IMG/VR virus record: IMGVR_UViG_3300044911_002177
Location: 1-29,154 of that record
DNA: 29,154 nucleotides
From: a virus
Strand: one strand, 5' to 3'
How positions within the stretch are numbered: the first letter of the stretch is position 1; every line of letters starts with the position of its first letter. Positions 3,814 through 19,010 of the stretch are shown one piece after another. The notes beneath the pieces are model-generated. The model saw nothing but the letters and a program-made list of their open reading frames with translations. It had not been told where the DNA came from and searched no databases. Position numbers and translations under genes: made by a program.

Positions 3814-6017
3814 TTCGTTTCGAGACTGTCAACGGCTTACTAAAGCCTGTGTTGCCTACCGATGCGACAGGTGATGAAGTCAAAGCAGCGGATACAATTG
3901 CACAGCGTTTAAACAAAATTCAAGGCTCTGGTGAAAACTACAAAACCTTAATGGAGTCTCTTGACAAAGAACTTCAAGGGAATAACAGCAACGCTCGGGA
4001 CTACATTGACGCCGAAACAATCACGGCGGTTGAGAATTTTTATCAAAAAGCAACAGGGTTAACTCCCTGGGATTCTTCCAAGCACGGGGTGCCTCTCGAT
4101 AGTTTTAACGCAAAATTTTACGCGCAACAGGTTCCAGAAGAAGTTAAAAAATGGAACGAGGCTGCCACTGCGGTTTCATTTGGAGGCAAGAAAATTTCAG
4201 ATATTGATATCACTAAAAAATACCCTGATTTAGATTCTTTTTTGCATTCAGAATACACATTTGTCGGTGCGCCAGCAGGTCTTTTGGGTGAACCCAGAGA
4301 TCTTGAGGTTTACAAAGAAACATTAAGGGCGCCCACCGATGCGGAACGCCAAATTTTGCGCGAAGCATTACTTGGAAAACCCGGAGGCGCAGAATCTCTT
4401 GCCGAAATGGCAACACAAAACTACATCAATAAACAAGGAGAACAAACCTTTGGTGCTTTATCTGCTGATGCATTAAAAGCAACTTTAAGCGAATATGCAA
4501 ACGCACTTAAAAAACAGCAAATGTCTGACATGCTTGAAGGCATGGGCATGCCTAGTGTTGGCAACATTAAACAAGACATTAAAAACGCAATCCTTGGTGA
4601 TAGTGGCGTTGGTGGTTACATGAATTTTGGAGCCGGTTCTAATATCGGCAAAAGTTTGTCTGACAGCTTAGATCGTAGTCTTGGCATGGGTTCGTCTGTC
4701 CAGTACAACTGGCAAAAGTGGTTTGATGAAACCTTGGCAAAACGATACGAGGATCGTTCTCAAATTACAGACCCAACAGATGCGTCTAAAACATATGAAC
4801 TTGAAAAAGAATTTGCCAAATCTTTTGTCGAAGATTATTTAAAGCCTAGATTCGATACATCAAAATCTATATCTGAATTTGTTAGCTATATGGATGTAAA
4901 GGATGACGAGCAAAACGTTCTACAAACACAACTTGCTTCTAACGCGTTAAAACAATATGCCAACGAAAAGGCCAAAGAATTTATTACTAGTCTTGGAGCC
5001 GCAGCAACACAAAAAGAATTTGACCCAAATTTTTACTGGAATCCAGAGCTGCTGTCCGGAACAGATGTAACAAACAAAAAAAGTGCATACGAACAGCAAA
5101 AGCAAAATGTTCAAGATTCCTGGGACAAACGCAATACAGACGAAGATGTAAAAAACGGCAAATCATGGAAAGAACTTGCTTATGAATATGGCGTTGATCT
5201 AGAAAACAAAAGCGATTTTGCTCGATTACATTATTCTGTTATCGGCAAAAATAAAAACTATGATCCGGTTGCCGATACCTACAACAGGCAAGATCTTGCC
5301 GCTTTTATCCAGGGGCCTCTTGCGGAAGCTTTGCAAGGTAAAAAAGCTTCTTTTGGTAATCCGGTTTTTCTTGATTTTGTTTCAGCAGAACAAAAAGCTG
5401 CTGAATTTGTCGATAAAATAAATATTTCCGATTTGCCCGAAGATATAAAAAAACAATTAGAAGGCCTTGGCTATGACACAAGTACAGATTCTGTTGCAGA
5501 ATTGCAAAGTGTTTTAACTGGTCTTTTAAGCACAGATCCTGCTTTTCAAATACGTGAAAGTATTAGGCAATTAAACGAACAACGTATTAAACCAACGCAA
5601 GAGCAACTAGGATTTGGTTATATCCAAAGGGACTCAGACGAGAAAGTTCAGGCTCCTGCTGGTGGCAGTGCATTGTTTGATGTTTTCCAAAAGGCTGGGT
5701 ATGGCGGAAGCGAAAGCGAATTTTACGCTGAGTTTTTTCCTGATGCTACTGAAGAAGACAAGAATTTAATGTCTCCAGGCTTAGGCAAATCAGGATCAAC
5801 TAAAGGCGTGCAAGGATTAATGGGATTCAGTATGCCAGATTTTTCTGATCCTTTTGCAGCAATGGGTTCACTGGATCAAATGCTTTCGGATGATAATATA
5901 AACAAGAAAGAGACGTATAAGCCGCGTCGGTCTAATTATTTCAAATACTTTACAGAAGAAGAAGACGAAGAAGCGCCTTCTTTCTTTGGTGGTGGAATCG
6001 GCTCTTTATTTGGTTAA
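3810..6017 (+). CDS. Large probable internal or structural virion protein, 735 aa
   Basis: The ATG overlaps the HNH gene stop (ATGA). The protein is highly charged, Lys/Glu/Asp/Gln-rich, mainly helical in appearance, with no membrane segment and no enzyme motif that I can identify. The C-terminus is distinctive: a Met/Phe/Pro-rich stretch, then an acidic run (FTEEEDEEAP), then a Gly/Phe tail FFGGGIGSLFG. The codon use is more A/T-rich than in the flanking virion genes. Size and position inside a virion operon suggest an internal, ejected or tail-associated protein. I do not recognise the family. Confidence 0.6.
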   Translation: MIRFETVNGLLKPVLPTDATGDEVKAADTIAQRLNKIQGSGENYKTLMESLDKELQGNNSNARDYIDAETITAVENFYQKATGLTPWDSSKHGVPLDSFNAKFYAQQVPEEVKKWNEAATAVSFGGKKISDIDITKKYPDLDSFLHSEYTFVGAPAGLLGEPRDLEVYKETLRAPTDAERQILREALLGKPGGAESLAEMATQNYINKQGEQTFGALSADALKATLSEYANALKKQQMSDMLEGMGMPSVGNIKQDIKNAILGDSGVGGYMNFGAGSNIGKSLSDSLDRSLGMGSSVQYNWQKWFDETLAKRYEDRSQITDPTDASKTYELEKEFAKSFVEDYLKPRFDTSKSISEFVSYMDVKDDEQNVLQTQLASNALKQYANEKAKEFITSLGAAATQKEFDPNFYWNPELLSGTDVTNKKSAYEQQKQNVQDSWDKRNTDEDVKNGKSWKELAYEYGVDLENKSDFARLHYSVIGKNKNYDPVADTYNRQDLAAFIQGPLAEALQGKKASFGNPVFLDFVSAEQKAAEFVDKINISDLPEDIKKQLEGLGYDTSTDSVAELQSVLTGLLSTDPAFQIRESIRQLNEQRIKPTQEQLGFGYIQRDSDEKVQAPAGGSALFDVFQKAGYGGSESEFYAEFFPDATEEDKNLMSPGLGKSGSTKGVQGLMGFSMPDFSDPFAAMGSLDQMLSDDNINKKETYKPRRSNYFKYFTEEEDEEAPSFFGGGIGSLFG

Positions 6018-6022
6018 CAAAC

Positions 6023-6295
6023 ATGTCAGATAAATCACGTAAAGCGGCCAGTGCTGCAAAAATTCACAAGGATTCCATGGAGTGCAACAAGCCTCGGCGA
6101 GACGTGCAGGGGGGTAAAAAGTCTGTTGTAAAAGCATGTGAAAACGGGCAAGAAAAAATCGTACGTTTTGGTGACGCCAACATGGAAATCAAACGAGACA
6201 ACCCAGAACGTCGCAAAAACTTTCGTGCCAGACACAACTGCGACGAACCCAAGAGCAAGTTGACGGCTGGTTACTGGTCGTGCAAAGCCTGGTGA
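6023..6295 (+). CDS. Small basic Cys-containing phage protein, 90 aa
   Basis: The ATG is 6 nt after the previous stop. The protein is strongly basic and has a conserved-looking layout: MECNKPRR, a VKACENG segment, KIVRFGDANMEIKRDNPERRKNFRARHNC in the middle and TAGYWSCKAW at the end. Four Cys residues and a His (C22, C39, H72/C74, C87) could bind a metal ion, though this is inference. Proteins ending in RKNFRARHNC...YWSCKAW recur in cyanophage and pelagiphage genomes as conserved hypothetical proteins near virion genes. Function unknown. Confidence 0.7.
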   Translation: MSDKSRKAASAAKIHKDSMECNKPRRDVQGGKKSVVKACENGQEKIVRFGDANMEIKRDNPERRKNFRARHNCDEPKSKLTAGYWSCKAW

Positions 6296-6331
6296 ATTAG
6301 GCTAAACTGCTGACGTTGTTACCTCAACACC

Positions 6332-6457
6332 ATGGCAAAACCCAAGTCAACCTCATTGGTCAAAATTGAAGCCAAGCCTAAGCTCACCCGTCAAGGCGAC
6401 GGCAAGCATTCCAAGCCCAGTCACGGCCGCAAGCTATCTCGCGGTCAAGGTAAGTAA
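6332..6457 (+). CDS. Very basic 41-aa protein
   Basis: An ATG at 6332 opens a 41-residue frame, MAKPKSTSLVKIEAKPK..., that is about 30% Lys/Arg/His with no acidic run, ending HGRKLSRGQGK. It is likely to bind nucleic acid or the packaged genome. A weak -10-like TAAACT lies at 6303-6308. The gene sits between the Cys-containing basic protein and the GH24 lysozyme, all on the same strand. Comparable short Lys-rich genes occur again at 27.8-28.5 kb. Confidence 0.6.
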   Translation: MAKPKSTSLVKIEAKPKLTRQGDGKHSKPSHGRKLSRGQGK

Positions 6458-6463
6458 ATTGTG

Positions 6464-6492
6464 TATGATTGGAGGTAATTGTAGTTACCTCC
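6464..6492 (+). promoter_or_regulatory. -10 element plus perfect hairpin masking the lysozyme Shine-Dalgarno
   Basis: TATGAT at 6464-6469 is followed by a perfect inverted repeat, GGAGGTAA (6471-6478) and TTACCTCC (6485-6492), around a 6-nt loop. The ATG of the lysozyme starts at the very next base. The left arm is the only good Shine-Dalgarno for that start, and the right arm is its exact complement. In long read-through RNA this would hide the ribosome site. As DNA it is a dyad that overlaps the expected transcription start and could be an operator. Confidence 0.6.
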
Positions 6493-7152
6493 ATGGCGGA
6501 TCTTTCGCATGCCGTTAACCTAATTCGTAAATACGAAGGGTTTAACGAAAAGGCATACCCCGATCCGTCATCAGGCGGCGAGCCATACACCATCGGGTTT
6601 GGGACTCAGTTCTACCCCGATGGTTCTCCCGTCAAGCGTGGCCAGTGTTGCAGTAAGGAAAAAGCACTGGAGTATCTCTTCCATGAGGTCTCTGTTATTG
6701 ACACGCAGCTTTCAAAGCTAAACCTTGGCCTTGATGACAGCATGCGTCAGGCTTTGCTTTCATTCATTCATTCCATTGGCTGGGAGCCATTTTTGTATGG
6801 ACGAGTGATTGACTGCATTGAACACGAAGATTTTGGCGCAGCTACAGAAGAGATCGGTCGGTGGGTCTTTGATGAAGACCACCAAGTAATTGGGAGCCTG
6901 CTCCACAGGCGTCGTGAAGAATCTCATCTTTTCCTTCGGGAAGTTGGTGCCAACACCTTGTCTTCTTCCGATGTACTGCTTGCTGCATTCCGCAACTACA
7001 CTGCTGCTCCGCACCAGGTAAAAGCCATTCGCTTCCTGGAGCAGGGACTTAGCCCGTACCTTCTTGCACAGTTTGCCAACGAGTTTCGGATTGACGATGA
7101 TCCCTGGGACGATTACACCAGTGATGCCGTCAATTTGGAATTCAGCAGCTAG
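6493..7152 (+). CDS. GH24 (T4-type) lysozyme, endolysin
   Basis: I place the start at ATG 6493, giving 219 residues beginning MADLSHAVNLIRKYEGF. The upstream TTG at 6469 would put the hairpin inside the coding region. The N-terminus has the GH24 active site: Glu15 in KYEGF, Asp24 in YPDP and Thr33 in EPYTIGFGT, matching Glu11, Asp20 and Thr26 of T4 lysozyme. RRREESHLF near residue 140 matches the GLxxRRxxExxLF motif of the family. About 70 extra residues follow the lysozyme fold. It hydrolyses the MurNAc-GlcNAc bond of peptidoglycan and is the best candidate for the lysis enzyme. No signal peptide or membrane anchor is visible, so it would need a holin to cross the membrane. Confidence 0.88.
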   Translation: MADLSHAVNLIRKYEGFNEKAYPDPSSGGEPYTIGFGTQFYPDGSPVKRGQCCSKEKALEYLFHEVSVIDTQLSKLNLGLDDSMRQALLSFIHSIGWEPFLYGRVIDCIEHEDFGAATEEIGRWVFDEDHQVIGSLLHRRREESHLFLREVGANTLSSSDVLLAAFRNYTAAPHQVKAIRFLEQGLSPYLLAQFANEFRIDDDPWDDYTSDAVNLEFSS

Positions 7153-11342: not shown

Positions 11343-14300
11343 GTGGCAAATAGAAGGATTACGGAGTTCCCGGCCATCAACGGGCTCGACATTAACGAAC
11401 AGGACCTTCTTACGTTGGTCCATGTTTTTGAAGTGGACCCTACGCTACGCAATAAGAAGATTACATTTGAGCAGTTTAAAGATTATTTAAACATCTACTA
11501 CGCCTCTACTAGTGGCACTACCTTTAGTGGCAACATTGCCATCTCTGGGAACCTAACCGTTTCTGGACTTGGTAGCTTTGGTACAATTCTTTCTTCTGGC
11601 CTCAGCACATTTAGTGGTATTGTTGTCCAAAATAATGCCGTAGTTAGTGGTACCGTAAGTGGCGCCACGATTACAGGTGCTAACCTGCAAGGCGTCAACG
11701 TCAATGCAACTACTGTTACTACAACCACTGCAACCGGCACTACAGCGTTATTTACCAGTGGTCAGTATCAATCCCTGTCTGGTGCAACAATTACCGGCGG
11801 ACAAGGCTCTTTCACTTCTGGGACGTTTGTAAATTTAAGCGGTACCTCAATCACCGGCACAACCGTAGCTGCTACTACGGGCACATTCCAAACCCTTTCT
11901 ACTCCTGTTCTTAACGTCAGCGGAAACCTTTCTGTTGCTAGTGGATTAACAGTAACGGAGACGGCACAATTTGCTGCAGGCGTACAAGTCACTGGTACGT
12001 TATCAGGCACAACAGTCACTGGTACAACGGCAAGGTTTAGCACCGTTAGCGGGGTGTCTGGTGTATTCACTACGAACCTTTCTGGCGCAACTATTACTGG
12101 TAATACGGTACTTGTTAGCAATATTACAGGAGTATCAGGAGTATTTACAACACAGGTTTCAGGTGCAACCGTCACAGGTAACACTGGTGCATTTGGAAAC
12201 GTAAGTGGTATTTCTGGTGTATTTACTCAGTTTCTTTCAGGTGCTGTAATTACTGGTGACGCTGGCCGGTTTACAGCTATTACTGGCGTATCTGGCGTAT
12301 ATACCAACCTGTCTGGTGCCGCTGTCACTGGGGATACTGTTGCGGCTACTAGCATCACTGGTGTGACTGGTGTGTTTACCAGTCGTATCTCAGGTGTAAC
12401 CGTAACCGGAACCACGGCAGCATTCACAACCATCAGCGGCGTATCCGGTGTATTTACCACAAATCTTTCTGGTGCAACTATTACAGGAGACAGTGTTCAA
12501 GCCTCTGGTTTAACTGCTGGCACTGGTAACTTTGTCCGTGTATCTGGAACAACCGTCACTGGTGATACGGGTGCGTTTACAAACCTCACTGGAATTGTAG
12601 GCGTATTTACAACAAGTGTTTCCGGGACCACCGTAATTAGCACAACTGTTACGGGTGCAACCGGTACGTTTACTTCGTTGACCGGTACCACAATTACGGG
12701 TACAACCGTCAATGCAACCACAGGTGTATTTAATACTCTTCAAGCGGTTAACTTAAGTTTTACCAATACAACGGTCTCCGGTAACTTAACAGTTGTAGGC
12801 TCTGGTTACTTTGGTTCTGGTGTTTCCGTAACAGGCACAATCAGCGGTATCACGGTTACTGGTACAAGTGGGCAGTTTACAAACATTACTGCTGACACAG
12901 CAAACTTTACAACTGCTACTGGCGTAACCGCAAGTTTCACAACCATCACTGGCGTTACTGTTACTGGCACCACTGCAAATTTTACTAGTGGCAACTTTGT
13001 CAGCTTTAGTGGTGGTACTTACATTGCCACGTCAGGTGTATTTGCATCCGGTACAGCCGCTAATCCCTCAATTTCTATTCTTGGAGACGCTGATACAGGG
13101 GTGTACTCTCCTGGTGCAAATCAACTAGCAATAACAACAAGTGGCACTGGCAGGCTGTTTGTTAACTCGGCAGGGAGAGTCGGGATTGGTACCGCTTCGT
13201 CGATTGCCCCCAGCGCCCCTCTTGACGATTTTCACATTGCGTCAACGGATCCTGCCGTTTTGTGGGAAGAAACAGACGCTGGTACTGATGAAAAATATTG
13301 GCGCATTCGTGCGGAAGGAAGCATTCTTCGTTTTGAAGGCATCAACGATGCGTTTAACGCAACAACTGCATGGTTAAACGTCACACGCACCACTGGCGCA
13401 CGCTCTGTTGACAACATTGCGTTTAGCACTGGCACTACCGAGCGTTTGCGTATTACCTCCGCAGGCAACGTAGGGATTGGCACCAGCATTGGCACTTGGA
13501 CTCCTGGAGTAACACTTGACGTGCGTTCTGGTTCCAACAACACAGCCGTCGAAGAAATTGCTGCTTTTGCACGGCCAGACGCATTAGTACGTGCATCTAT
13601 CAACAAAGGCATCGTTTCTGGTAATGGCATTTCATTTGGCACTACTACAAATCATCCGCTTGCATTAAGGACAAACGCCCTTGAAAGAATTGTCATTGGC
13701 GCTACTGGCACAACAACATTAACGTCTGACGCGTCTACTGCACCGTTAATTGTCAATATCAGCGCCAGCGAAGTAGCCCGCATCGACAGCTCCGGCAGGT
13801 TGTTGGTGGGTACAAGCGCGGCGCGGTCTTTTACTGCAGGTGCTCAGCCGGCTATTCAGATTGAGTCCGCAACACTGTCTACTGGGCTAGGGATTACAAC
13901 CAATCGCAATGATAGTGCTTGCAATGTTCTGCACTTTGGTAAATCACGATCTGGCACCTTGGGTGGGTTTGGCATTGTCTCTAGCGGAGACGCTGTAGGA
14001 GAGGTTCGTTTTGAGGCCGCAGACGGCTCTGCAATGATTCGCGCTGCGACTATCCAGGCTCAAGTAGACGGCACCCCCGGCGCTAACGATATGCCAGGGC
14101 GGCTTGTACTCTCCACGACCGCGGATGGTGCGAGCAGCCCGACGGAGCGGATGAGGATTGATTCATCAGGTCGCGTAGGGATTGGCACTACTAGCCCTTC
14201 TGCATTACTCGACGTTAACGGCACGCATGTCGAACCGGGTTCAATTAGGTTTTTTGCAAATGCGACTTCTTTCCTGGGAAACTCTATTGGCGTTTTAAGT

Positions 14301-15950
14301 GGCAACAATTTTGTATTTACACTTGGAAGCACAGAACGCGCCCGCATCGACAGCTCCGGCAGGTTGTTAGTTGGCACGTCTACTGCGCGTTCTAATTTTA
14401 CAAACAGAACCGATGTAGCGCCAGCACTTCAAGTAGAAGGACTGGCAACCGCATTGGGCGATAAAGCCATTTCCATTGTATCAAGCAGTTCTGTTACTTC
14501 AAGGGGCGCTCATTTGTATATGAGCCACCAGTTGAGCGGAACTATTGGCGGAAATACAGTACTTGGGAACAATAACCAAATTGGGTTGATCTCTTTTAAC
14601 GGCAGTGACGGGAGTGAGTTTGTAGAAGCTGCAACGATTGGGGCGTTTACTGACGGCACTCCTGGCACTGACGACATGCCAGGGCGGCTTGTACTCTCCA
14701 CGACCGCGGATGGTGCGAGCAGCCCGACGGAGCGGATGCGGATTACGTCGGCAGGTTTGATTGGGATTGGCGCCACGAACCCTGCCACATTGCTGCATTT
14801 GTCCTCAGCAACAGGCAGTGCAACGCCCACTCCCACTGAGCTAAGGATTGCAACTACAACGGTTGCATCAGATTGGTCCGTAACCAATCCATGGGGCAGA
14901 ATTAGTTTTTATAGCGAAGATGGTTCAGCTTTCGGTCCCAAAATTCATGCATCTATTGATGCGACGGCACTAACAACGGCAGGTGGAACGTCGGATATTG
15001 TATTTAGAACAAACAACAATACGAGCAATACATTAGACGCTCGAATGGTTATCAAGGGCGACTCAAGTGCTGCAGGGGCAAGGGTAGGCATTGGAACGAC
15101 AAGCCCTGGCGGAGCCCTTGAAATTCAAGCTGCTGCAACAATTCACCCTTTAATTGTTCAAGGTCCGTCGAGTGAGTTTGCCCGCATTGATAGTTCTGGC
15201 AGGTTGTTGGTGGGCACTTCTACTGCTTATGGAATCAGCGGCCTAGCAACTCCTGACGTACAACTTTCCAAAGCAAATCAGGACTCCACTCTTGCAGTGA
15301 CTGCATGGAAAGGAGACAGCAATGGCTTTAATCCAACGCTGCAATTCATGCGTTCGTATAACAATACAACGGGAACTCATACTGCTGTTCCAGATGGGGC
15401 CCGTTTAGGATCTATTCGTTTTGCTGGTTCTGATGGAACTGCTTTCTTTCCTGGCGCAGAAATTGTTGCAAATTCTGATGGTCAAACATGGGCTTCAGGA
15501 GATTGCCCAGGCCGCCTAGCATTCCTTACTACCGCCGACGGTGCGAGCAGTACGACGGAGCGGATGAGGATTACGAGTGACGGTTCAACTTTAATTGGTA
15601 CTACGAGTACGTCAGGAGCTGTTAGCAATACTTCACTTGCCGTGGCAGGAATCTTTAGAAGTATTAGCGGGGCAACCGCATCAACTGCTTCTGCAACTCC
15701 AGTCACATTGTTCGCGTTGCCTTCTAGTGGCATTGCTACATATTTTTTAACTGTAACATTATCCCCGGCTGCCGCTGCAAGCAATTATCACGCTACTTAC
15801 ATGGTTGGTTGTTCCGCCAATACTGCCGTAATTCAGCCCATAAAAGCAGGCACTTCGCTTACTGTTGCTCTAAGTGGAATGAACGTGCAGGCGACTCAAA
15901 CCAGCGGAGCAGCTCAAGTTATGAATTGGAGCGCTGTCAGGATGGCCTAG
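11343..15950 (+). CDS. Tail fibre / receptor-binding protein, 1535 aa
   Basis: A GTG start gives MANRRITEFPAINGLDINEQDLL, an N-terminus typical of cyanophage tail fibres and probably the tail-attachment part. Residues ~55-580 are Gly/Thr/Ser/Val repeats of about 25 residues built around SGATITGDT and GVSGVFTT. These suggest a fibrous beta-helix. From ~580, repeats change to the type SSGRLLVGTS and TERMRIDSSGRVGIGTTSP, interleaved with unique segments such as DADTGVYSPGANQL. The last ~95 residues form a distinct cap starting IFRSISGATAS and ending MNWSAVRMA. There is no S74-type intramolecular chaperone. It should bind the host surface. The repeats are also near-identical at the DNA level in places. 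Confidence 0.85.
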   Translation: MANRRITEFPAINGLDINEQDLLTLVHVFEVDPTLRNKKITFEQFKDYLNIYYASTSGTTFSGNIAISGNLTVSGLGSFGTILSSGLSTFSGIVVQNNAVVSGTVSGATITGANLQGVNVNATTVTTTTATGTTALFTSGQYQSLSGATITGGQGSFTSGTFVNLSGTSITGTTVAATTGTFQTLSTPVLNVSGNLSVASGLTVTETAQFAAGVQVTGTLSGTTVTGTTARFSTVSGVSGVFTTNLSGATITGNTVLVSNITGVSGVFTTQVSGATVTGNTGAFGNVSGISGVFTQFLSGAVITGDAGRFTAITGVSGVYTNLSGAAVTGDTVAATSITGVTGVFTSRISGVTVTGTTAAFTTISGVSGVFTTNLSGATITGDSVQASGLTAGTGNFVRVSGTTVTGDTGAFTNLTGIVGVFTTSVSGTTVISTTVTGATGTFTSLTGTTITGTTVNATTGVFNTLQAVNLSFTNTTVSGNLTVVGSGYFGSGVSVTGTISGITVTGTSGQFTNITADTANFTTATGVTASFTTITGVTVTGTTANFTSGNFVSFSGGTYIATSGVFASGTAANPSISILGDADTGVYSPGANQLAITTSGTGRLFVNSAGRVGIGTASSIAPSAPLDDFHIASTDPAVLWEETDAGTDEKYWRIRAEGSILRFEGINDAFNATTAWLNVTRTTGARSVDNIAFSTGTTERLRITSAGNVGIGTSIGTWTPGVTLDVRSGSNNTAVEEIAAFARPDALVRASINKGIVSGNGISFGTTTNHPLALRTNALERIVIGATGTTTLTSDASTAPLIVNISASEVARIDSSGRLLVGTSAARSFTAGAQPAIQIESATLSTGLGITTNRNDSACNVLHFGKSRSGTLGGFGIVSSGDAVGEVRFEAADGSAMIRAATIQAQVDGTPGANDMPGRLVLSTTADGASSPTERMRIDSSGRVGIGTTSPSALLDVNGTHVEPGSIRFFANATSFLGNSIGVLSGNNFVFTLGSTERARIDSSGRLLVGTSTARSNFTNRTDVAPALQVEGLATALGDKAISIVSSSSVTSRGAHLYMSHQLSGTIGGNTVLGNNNQIGLISFNGSDGSEFVEAATIGAFTDGTPGTDDMPGRLVLSTTADGASSPTERMRITSAGLIGIGATNPATLLHLSSATGSATPTPTELRIATTTVASDWSVTNPWGRISFYSEDGSAFGPKIHASIDATALTTAGGTSDIVFRTNNNTSNTLDARMVIKGDSSAAGARVGIGTTSPGGALEIQAAATIHPLIVQGPSSEFARIDSSGRLLVGTSTAYGISGLATPDVQLSKANQDSTLAVTAWKGDSNGFNPTLQFMRSYNNTTGTHTAVPDGARLGSIRFAGSDGTAFFPGAEIVANSDGQTWASGDCPGRLAFLTTADGASSTTERMRITSDGSTLIGTTSTSGAVSNTSLAVAGIFRSISGATASTASATPVTLFALPSSGIATYFLTVTLSPAAAASNYHATYMVGCSANTAVIQPIKAGTSLTVALSGMNVQATQTSGAAQVMNWSAVRMA
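14091..14153 (+). repeat. 63-nt exact direct repeat in tail-fibre gene, copy 1
   Basis: This stretch encodes the end of MPGRLVLSTTADG and the run to TERM. It is identical base for base to 14676-14738, 585 nt downstream and in the same frame. A diverged third copy is near 15500-15575. Confidence 0.9.
14676..14738 (+). repeat. 63-nt exact direct repeat in tail-fibre gene, copy 2
   Basis: Identical to 14091-14153. A second pair of exact repeats, 29 nt long, lies at 13776-13804 and 14340-14368. Recombination between copies would delete or add fibre modules in frame. Confidence 0.9.
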
Positions 15951-17896: not shown

Positions 17897-18061
17897 TCAG
17901 CGTTGTTTTGCCCGGCCAATCACCAGTCCACCAATTTCAATTAACTTGTACAACTTGCGTGCAACCCGATCGTCCTTAGGGGTAGGGGTCAATGCGCAGA
18001 TTGCGGAACATGCCGCGTGAATGGCAAGAGCCACTTCAAAGTACTGGTTAAGATGTGCCAT
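17897..18061 (-). CDS. Small conserved phage protein, possible holin-like, 54 aa
   Basis: Minus-strand ATG at 18061 gives MAHLNQYFEVALAIHAACSAICALTPTPKDDRVARKLYKLIEIGGLVIGRAKQR. It has a weakly hydrophobic N-terminal helix, the turn ALTPTPKDD and a second amphipathic helix ending GRAKQ (quoted in pieces: HAACSAICALTPTPKDD at ~15-31). Small proteins with ALTPTPKDD and a terminal GKAK are widespread in phages, often near lysis genes and sometimes named holins, without firm proof. It abuts the end of the plus-strand block, stop to stop. Its promoter motif is the 14-mer at 18087-18074. Confidence 0.65.
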   Translation of the reverse strand: MAHLNQYFEVALAIHAACSAICALTPTPKDDRVARKLYKLIEIGGLVIGRAKQR

Positions 18062-18090: not shown

Positions 18091-18225
18091 TTAGCACTCG
18101 TAAATGCGACACTCAAGAGCGTTTGGGTTTTCATCACAGTATTGCTTCCAGGCTTGCGCGGGCAAGTGCTTTGTTTTTACAGGACGTTTAAACCTTTGTA
18201 ATAACTTAAGAAGTTGTTTGATCAT
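18091..18225 (-). CDS. CP12-like mini protein, 44 aa
   Basis: Minus-strand ATG at 18225 encodes a 44-residue protein. Residues 1-19 are basic (MIKQLLKLLQRFKRPVKTK). Residues 25-44 read AWKQYCDENPNALECRIYEC, which reproduces the C-terminal end of CP12: Cys, eight residues with a central Pro, Cys, then R-I/V-Y-acidic. CP12 uses this redox-active Cys pair and tail to bind GAPDH and, with phosphoribulokinase, to shut down the Calvin cycle in the dark. Cyanophages are known to carry cp12. This version lacks the N-terminal Cys pair and the AWD-VEEL core needed for phosphoribulokinase, and has an extra terminal Cys44. The ATG overlaps the stop of the gene at 18222-19010 (ATGA). Confidence 0.6.
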   Translation of the reverse strand: MIKQLLKLLQRFKRPVKTKHLPAQAWKQYCDENPNALECRIYEC

Positions 18226-19010
18226 GACCTGTTTGTCAAAGGTACAAAAATTTCAGGGAAAGGATCCGTGTCTTGATGCTCATTTTGCCATGCGCTTTTC
18301 CATTCGGATAACGAGTGATCGTGCACGGTGTTGAAATACCCATCATCTACGATTTCCACAATAAAACCATACTGTAAAGTTGGGGCTGCTGTGAACGTGT
18401 TTTGTGATGCAGGTGCGTCTTCTTGAAGAAAAACGCCTCCCGCAGTATCTTCTAGTTCAAAGAAAAGGCTTGTATCTGGAAATTCAATAACAACACCTAG
18501 CTCATAAGCCAAAGGTTCGTTGCGTGTTGTAGCAACACAGACTAGATAGCTACCTGCCTCTAAGGGATAATATCGCTCGTCTCCACGGTCAAGACGTGAG
18601 TTATCAAAGGTATTGTATAAATCAGACTGTGCACCCATTGCCGTATCCATGTACGGAAAATAAGTACTGCCATTATTGTTTACCGAGATAGAGTCCTTAC
18701 TAAAAATTTCACGTCCTTCAATAGGATTTTTGTTTAAATCATAGGTTGATATTTGGATGTAATTAGGACGCGGCGGTCCTTTTGCAAGAATGATCCACGC
18801 TGGAGACGTGATGTTGATCTGGAACCAATGATTGTAAGTTCCGCCACCAAAGCCACCGTTTGAGTTTTGATTTGTATCAGCACGCCCAACAACTTTGTTT
18901 TGCGGCCCCAGGGTGCCCTTTAAGTAACGAAGCGATGTATTACTAAACGTACCAAGTACCAATGGGTTATGGACACTCCGCTGGGCTTGTGCGTTTTGAT
19001 TACGAGACAT
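18222..19010 (-). CDS. Probable virion-associated protein, 262 aa
   Basis: The protein starts MSRNQNAQAQRSVHNPLVLGTFSN and is Asn/Gly/Ser/Tyr-rich with many beta-type stretches such as THNHWF-like and GSYLVCVATTRNEP segments. The middle resembles a jelly-roll or carbohydrate-binding type domain (PLEAGSYLVCVATTRNEPLAYELGVVIEF, residues roughly 150-180). The end is acidic, DTDPFPEIFVPL. No catalytic motif is seen. It is the only structural-looking gene within the minus-strand block, and its stop is coupled to the CP12-like gene (ATGA). A decoration or fibre-type role is a guess from composition. Confidence 0.55.
   Translation of the reverse strand: MSRNQNAQAQRSVHNPLVLGTFSNTSLRYLKGTLGPQNKVVGRADTNQNSNGGFGGGTYNHWFQINITSPAWIILAKGPPRPNYIQISTYDLNKNPIEGREIFSKDSISVNNNGSTYFPYMDTAMGAQSDLYNTFDNSRLDRGDERYYPLEAGSYLVCVATTRNEPLAYELGVVIEFPDTSLFFELEDTAGGVFLQEDAPASQNTFTAAPTLQYGFIVEIVDDGYFNTVHDHSLSEWKSAWQNEHQDTDPFPEIFVPLTNRS

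Follow-up and report, generated by a model that had tools for sequence, protein, structure and literature searches.

CP12 proteins of cyanobacteria, algae and plants (PF02672) are among the closest known relatives of the protein studied here. In the solved complexes, the C-terminal domain of CP12 binds GAPDH, in such a way that its tail fills the active site, and the contacts with PRK are made by its two N-terminal helices (PMC10253348). The PRK-binding hairpin, the AWD_VEE core and the N-terminal Cys pair all lie in the first half of the CP12 profile (PMC3906501, PMC10253348). Tails with the CxxxPxxxxC motif that are grafted on GapB and on Chlamydomonas ADK3 also bind GAPDH (PMC9406205). In marine cyanophages, cp12 is highly expressed in light and has been linked to inhibition of the Calvin cycle (PMC5082946), and the existence of cyanophage proteins similar to the C-terminus of CP12 has already been stated in reviews (PMC3906501, PMC9406205).

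The window, a stretch of 29,154 nucleotides that corresponds to the IMG/VR virus record IMGVR_UViG_3300044911_002177, encodes a 44-residue protein that we call mini-CP12. The position given to it in the original prediction was exact, and the strand, not given there, is the minus one. Translation from 18225 to 18091 yields MIKQLLKLLQRFKRPVKTKHLPAQAWKQYCDENPNALECRIYEC, in which every one of the features listed beforehand is present: Cys30-x8-Cys39, the central Pro, ECRIYE, Cys44 and a basic N-terminus. The Cys pair has the form C30-x3-P34-x4-C39, which is the CxxxPxxxxC motif followed by the tail. A profile search with the Pfam CP12 model gave E=2.7e-8 and 34.9 bits, against a cut-off of 22.7, with residues 9-43 aligned only to profile positions 36-70 of 70 and positions 1-35 unmatched. 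A six-frame search of the 29,154-base record detected this single CP12 match (E=4.3e-9), and phmmer found CP12 chains of the PDB, the best being the 23-residue CP12 peptide of 3zdf (E=1.6e-5). The Pfam and six-frame E values and the matches across the lineage rule out a chance motif. The segment matched is the GAPDH-binding domain of the published structures (PMC10253348), in agreement with the proposed homology to the C-terminus only; the N-terminal Cys pair, the AWD_VEE core and the PRK-binding helical hairpin are all absent. The features of the locus are collected in Table 1.

Table 1. Features of the mini-CP12 locus (coordinates of the window).
Feature	Coordinates	Strand	Basis and remarks
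Downstream small gene, 54 aa, conserved neighbour	17897..18061	-	Homologue in 18/33 loci compared; weak PHROG match
mini-CP12 gene, 44 aa	18091..18225	-	ATG start; TAA stop at 18091-18093; PF02672 match, homologues, purifying selection
CP12 C-terminal tail (GAPDH-binding by homology), residues 21-44	18094..18165	-	Helix predicted at 22-32, followed by a loop that Cys30-Cys39 closes; Pfam and PDB matches, AF2
Cys39 codon, second of the pair	18109..18111	-	Conserved in 46/46
Cys30 codon, first of the pair	18136..18138	-	Conserved in 46/46
N-terminal basic amphipathic segment, residues 1-20	18166..18225	-	Predicted helix 2-12; stands in place of the PRK-binding half
ATGA overlap, upstream stop/mini-CP12 start	18222..18225	-	ATGA in most relatives
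Upstream gene, 262 aa, constant left neighbour of mini-CP12	18222..19010	-	50 IMG/VR loci; no Pfam match

Relatives were gathered through the upstream gene (50 IMG/VR loci) and through the endolysin gene (80), and the 50 IMG/VR records plus the phage S-EIV1, an isolate whose host is a Synechococcus, were searched whole. A CP12 match was found at the same place in 42 of these 51 records sharing the upstream gene, including S-EIV1, and the PF02672 cut-off was exceeded in 26 of the 51 in the six-frame search. All the matches in the 42 records are C-terminal, starting at profile positions 28 to 50 and ending at 70, within open frames of 38-58 aa, and one of 96. IMG/VR and S-EIV1 together supply 46 distinct full sequences, with lengths of 37-46 aa and no stop or frameshift in any of them, and every one carries C-x8-C-[RK]-x-[YH]-[DE]-x at its extreme C-terminus. 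The last residue varies among them (D 16, V 14, I 7, C 3, N 3, S 2, E 1), so that the extra Cys44 that had been pointed out is real in the window protein but is not conserved in the family, and its role as a third functional Cys was ruled out. In the GenBank record of S-EIV1 (KJ410740) the gene, at 5934-6068 on the minus strand, lacks annotation and sits between the CDS at 6068-7006 and PurM (5040-5930).

Neither a second, full-length CP12 in the same phages nor a full-length form within the lineage was found in the 51 records, each match being the only one in its record. A full-length CP12 frameshifted or truncated in this genome alone was also ruled out, because the frame before it belongs to another conserved gene and the short form is found lineage-wide. 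In the nine records without mini-CP12, another sequence follows the upstream gene; the gene is therefore accessory and dispensable. In one relative (L025:10925-11024), a tail-only CP12-like frame, QNNFKYYCKKNPWYQGCRMYDV, without an ATG, lies directly after the upstream gene, and could be a decayed copy or have a non-ATG start. This frame and the nine records without the gene would fit a decaying, functionless remnant of a once full-length phage CP12, but the constancy of length, Cys pair and tail, the intact frames, the failure to find a full-length ancestor in the lineage and the low dN/dS values described below make this reading very improbable. As judged from these comparisons, mini-CP12 is a conserved phage gene and no fragment.

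Selection was studied through Jukes-Cantor-corrected Nei-Gojobori estimates. In close pairs of mini-CP12 genes dN/dS was about 0.05-0.2, with dN 0.11 and dS 0.95 between the window and L002, 0.05 and 0.59 between L003 and L005, and 0.05 and 0.97 between L063 and L060. Pooled dN/dS was 0.33 for the tail vs 0.86 for the N-segment, in a set of 80 pairs that are not independent and many of which are distant. These data indicate that mini-CP12 is under purifying selection, with the tail more constrained than the N-segment. The window and the 81 kb record L033 (from L033:10786 onward) are mostly 92-100% identical in the 1.6 kb that precede mini-CP12 and again between about 360 and 1,860 nt past its start codon, but in the 180 nt that begin at this codon identity falls to 67-73%. 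The drop spans positions 18225 to about 17870 of the window, with recovery by about 360 nt, pointing to the replacement of mini-CP12 by a diverged allele in the window phage or in that of L033. This pair was kept outside the dN/dS list, its synonymous divergence being too high.

Compared with canonical CP12, mini-CP12 shares the CxxxPxxxxC loop, the short helix that precedes it and the tail [RK]-x-Y-[DE]-x, but it is half as long, has a basic instead of an acidic N-part, and is devoid of the elements of the first half of the profile. The CP12 proteins of picocyanobacteria and of T4-like cyanophages (Kyanoviridae), of around 70 aa, have the same GAPDH-binding tail and likewise lack the N-terminal Cys pair, but their matches extend over the full profile (1-70 or 3-70), and they have a conserved acidic N-domain (SIDEHIxKDxxE...RHLxxELxxLExY), of which mini-CP12 has nothing. 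A search of 71 picocyanobacterial genomes gave 80 CP12 matches in 68 of them, all starting at profile position 20 or earlier, and no cellular mini-CP12 was found among these 80 matches or among 10 genome-wide pattern matches; a phylum-wide search of 386 genomes returned best matches only and has no bearing on short forms. In GapB and ADK3, as in mini-CP12, a CP12 tail is joined to an unrelated N-part, which is an enzyme in those proteins and around 20 residues, predicted as a basic amphipathic helix, in mini-CP12.

A length of about 70 residues, as stated for cyanophage CP12, holds for the T4-like phages examined, mostly with 69-75 aa, but not for S-CREM2 and S-CRES3, in which proteins of 57 and 54 aa (gp30) are annotated. 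Both are short and, like mini-CP12, correspond only to the C-terminus of CP12 (profile 47-70 and 38-70), but they are longer, have other N-parts and belong to different phage lineages with different gene neighbours. In S-CRES3 gp30 (L287:605-769) and in an unannotated frame of S-CBS2 (L288, about 593-799) both Cys are replaced (FLEENPSRLEAKIYDV and ANEENPSRLEARIYDV, respectively), and these cyanosiphovirus tails are possibly redox-independent. Another virus group (L183:3947-4114 and L184:3639-3806) encodes a 56-aa protein that has only the C-terminal part of CP12, behind an acidic N-part (Pfam E=8.7e-9, profile 43-70). The original prediction had named, as evidence against it, a missing HMM match, which the Pfam result contradicts, and homologues with the same motif in phages of non-photosynthetic hosts. 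The only such match inspected, in Pseudomonas phage psageK4e, runs on the strand opposite to annotated genes, does not carry the motif and was discarded as chance, and two Bacillus phage records gave matches with E up to 10. Among the papers searched, none was found in which the mini form of the S-EIV1 lineage is described.

The position of the gene directly behind the upstream one resembles T4-like phages, where cp12 is often found directly behind a large gene. The junction is TAATG in S-EIV1, and TAA with a nearby ATG in some relatives; the ATGA overlap seen in the window likely reflects translational coupling. The 54-aa downstream protein is hydrophobic (MAHLNQYFEVALAIHAACSAICALTPTPKDDR...) and encoded near the endolysin gene, and could be holin-like. 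Transaldolase, photosystem D1/D2 (psbA) and the RNR large chain were not found in 12 relatives, nine of them of 79-86 kb, among which the linear-class records may be fragments; the usual cyanophage set for carbon redirection was thus not detected in them. Of the genes for carbon metabolism and photosynthesis that were sought, mini-CP12 was the only one found, and the annotated genes of S-EIV1 include PurM, ThyX, dCTP deaminase and sulfate adenylyltransferase. Elsewhere in the window, positions 14062-14381 (+), within a 1535-aa fibre-like gene, show about 87% identity to the tail fibre gene of the Synechococcus podovirus S-CBP4, which points to module exchange between unrelated phages.

What could such a protein do in the infected cell? 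Lacking the PRK-binding hairpin, mini-CP12 cannot recruit PRK, and would hence be a plug and not a bridge. In Synechocystis, a CP12 mutated in its N-terminal Cys pair kept NAD(P)H re-oxidation wild-type-like and growth on glucose almost at the wild-type level, which a CP12 mutated in the C-terminal pair did not (PMC9623430); the behaviour of the N-terminal variant favours direct inhibition of GAPDH over mere uncoupling. In light, about 59% of the C-terminal pair of CP12 is reduced and about 40% oxidised, as against 17% reduced in dark (PMC13214033), so that an oxidised fraction exists in light. From the solved complexes, the Synechocystis mutants, this redox state and the marine cp12 data, we infer that mini-CP12 is a GAPDH-only CP12 that plugs the active site of GAPDH without recruiting PRK, a reading that we consider fairly probable as regards both binding and inhibition. 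In an infected freshwater picocyanobacterium, the oxidised form, with a Cys30-Cys39 disulfide, would fold into a short helix and a loop, and its C-terminal IYE tail would enter the Calvin-cycle GAPDH at its active site and lower the NADPH-driven reduction of 1,3-bisphosphoglycerate. With the site occupied, host CP12 would be kept off and PRK left outside the complex, in such a way that carbon fixation would slow and NADPH would be spared for phage nucleotide synthesis; we infer this benefit to the phage as well. The affinity of a free peptide may be lower than that of whole CP12 in the ternary complex. The dispensability of the gene and the failure to find the usual carbon-redirection set in the 12 relatives also speak against this reading.

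The presence of the GAPDH-binding element of the host protein and the absence of the PRK-binding one could also be read in the opposite sense, as a decoy that displaces host CP12, so that the dark complex releases PRK and GAPDH and the Calvin cycle stays partly active. However, the same tail occupies the active site of GAPDH in the solved complexes (PMC10253348), so that a competitor would itself inhibit; in Synechocystis, control of GapDH outweighs that of PRK (PMC9623430), and carbon fixation is inhibited by marine cyanophage infection according to PMC5082946, which cites Puxty 2016 for it. We regard the decoy as unlikely. With GAPDH plugging as the preferred reading, this freshwater cyanophage lineage probably uses a natural, stripped-down peptide to switch off carbon fixation in its host.

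GAPDH plugging leaves the N-segment unexplained. The mean charge of residues 2-17 was +4.35 in 17 cluster representatives vs -0.24 in 74 S-EIV1 proteins (p=2e-9). The representatives were also higher in hydrophobic moment, with 0.42 vs 0.22 for S-EIV1 proteins (p=9e-6). The segments are poor in acidic residues, and their sequences diverge from MIKQLLKLLQRFK to MMGFYNWLICKLFKRC to MFKFILHLLKKK; what is conserved is their basic, amphipathic character, and not their sequence. The basic N-terminus described as unusual is thus a family-wide feature, in charge and in moment. AF2 with an 18-row alignment predicted helices at residues 2-12 and 22-32, with a pLDDT of 75 overall and about 78 in residues 1-10, the second predicted helix fitting the short helix before the C-terminal loop of plant CP12 (PMC10253348). 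A Foldseek search of the PDB with a low-confidence single-sequence model (pLDDT 69; at 44 aa, too short) gave no match.

The N-segment is perhaps a second conserved module that holds the peptide at a membrane. The predicted basic amphipathic helix could lie on the thylakoid or plasma membrane while the tail draws GAPDH there, relocating or concentrating the enzyme and not only plugging it. The maintenance of this character in 17 distinct clusters despite sequence divergence, a moment above that of shuffled segments (0.43 vs 0.28 across the family) and the predicted helix 2-12 speak for such a recruiter, but the small size of the segment tells against it, nucleic acid or an acidic protein would be just as plausible a partner for a helix of this kind, and the acidic N-part of the L183 and L184 proteins shows that a short CP12 can do without a basic one; we hold anchoring to be possible, if rather doubtful. 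Slightly less likely still is a two-part adaptor, in which a cationic amphipathic helix on the host membrane and a GAPDH-seizing CP12 tail would silence carbon fixation by both relocating and plugging the enzyme, from one gene of about 130 bases, the only one for carbon metabolism that was found, whose alleles have been replaced between close phages.

The basic helix as a putative membrane anchor, the allele replacement and the absence of psbA, talC and RNR from the relatives are the most interesting points of this locus. With about 44 residues, mini-CP12 can be synthesised as a peptide, which makes its function cheap to test. The gene is missing from the annotation of S-EIV1, a reference isolate whose lineage has many members in IMG/VR, so that an effect of this lineage on carbon fixation has probably been overlooked. 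If GAPDH plugging is true, mini-CP12 would be a natural GAPDH-only CP12 that separates the plugging of GAPDH from the bridging to PRK, and would show which of the jobs of CP12 a virus needs.
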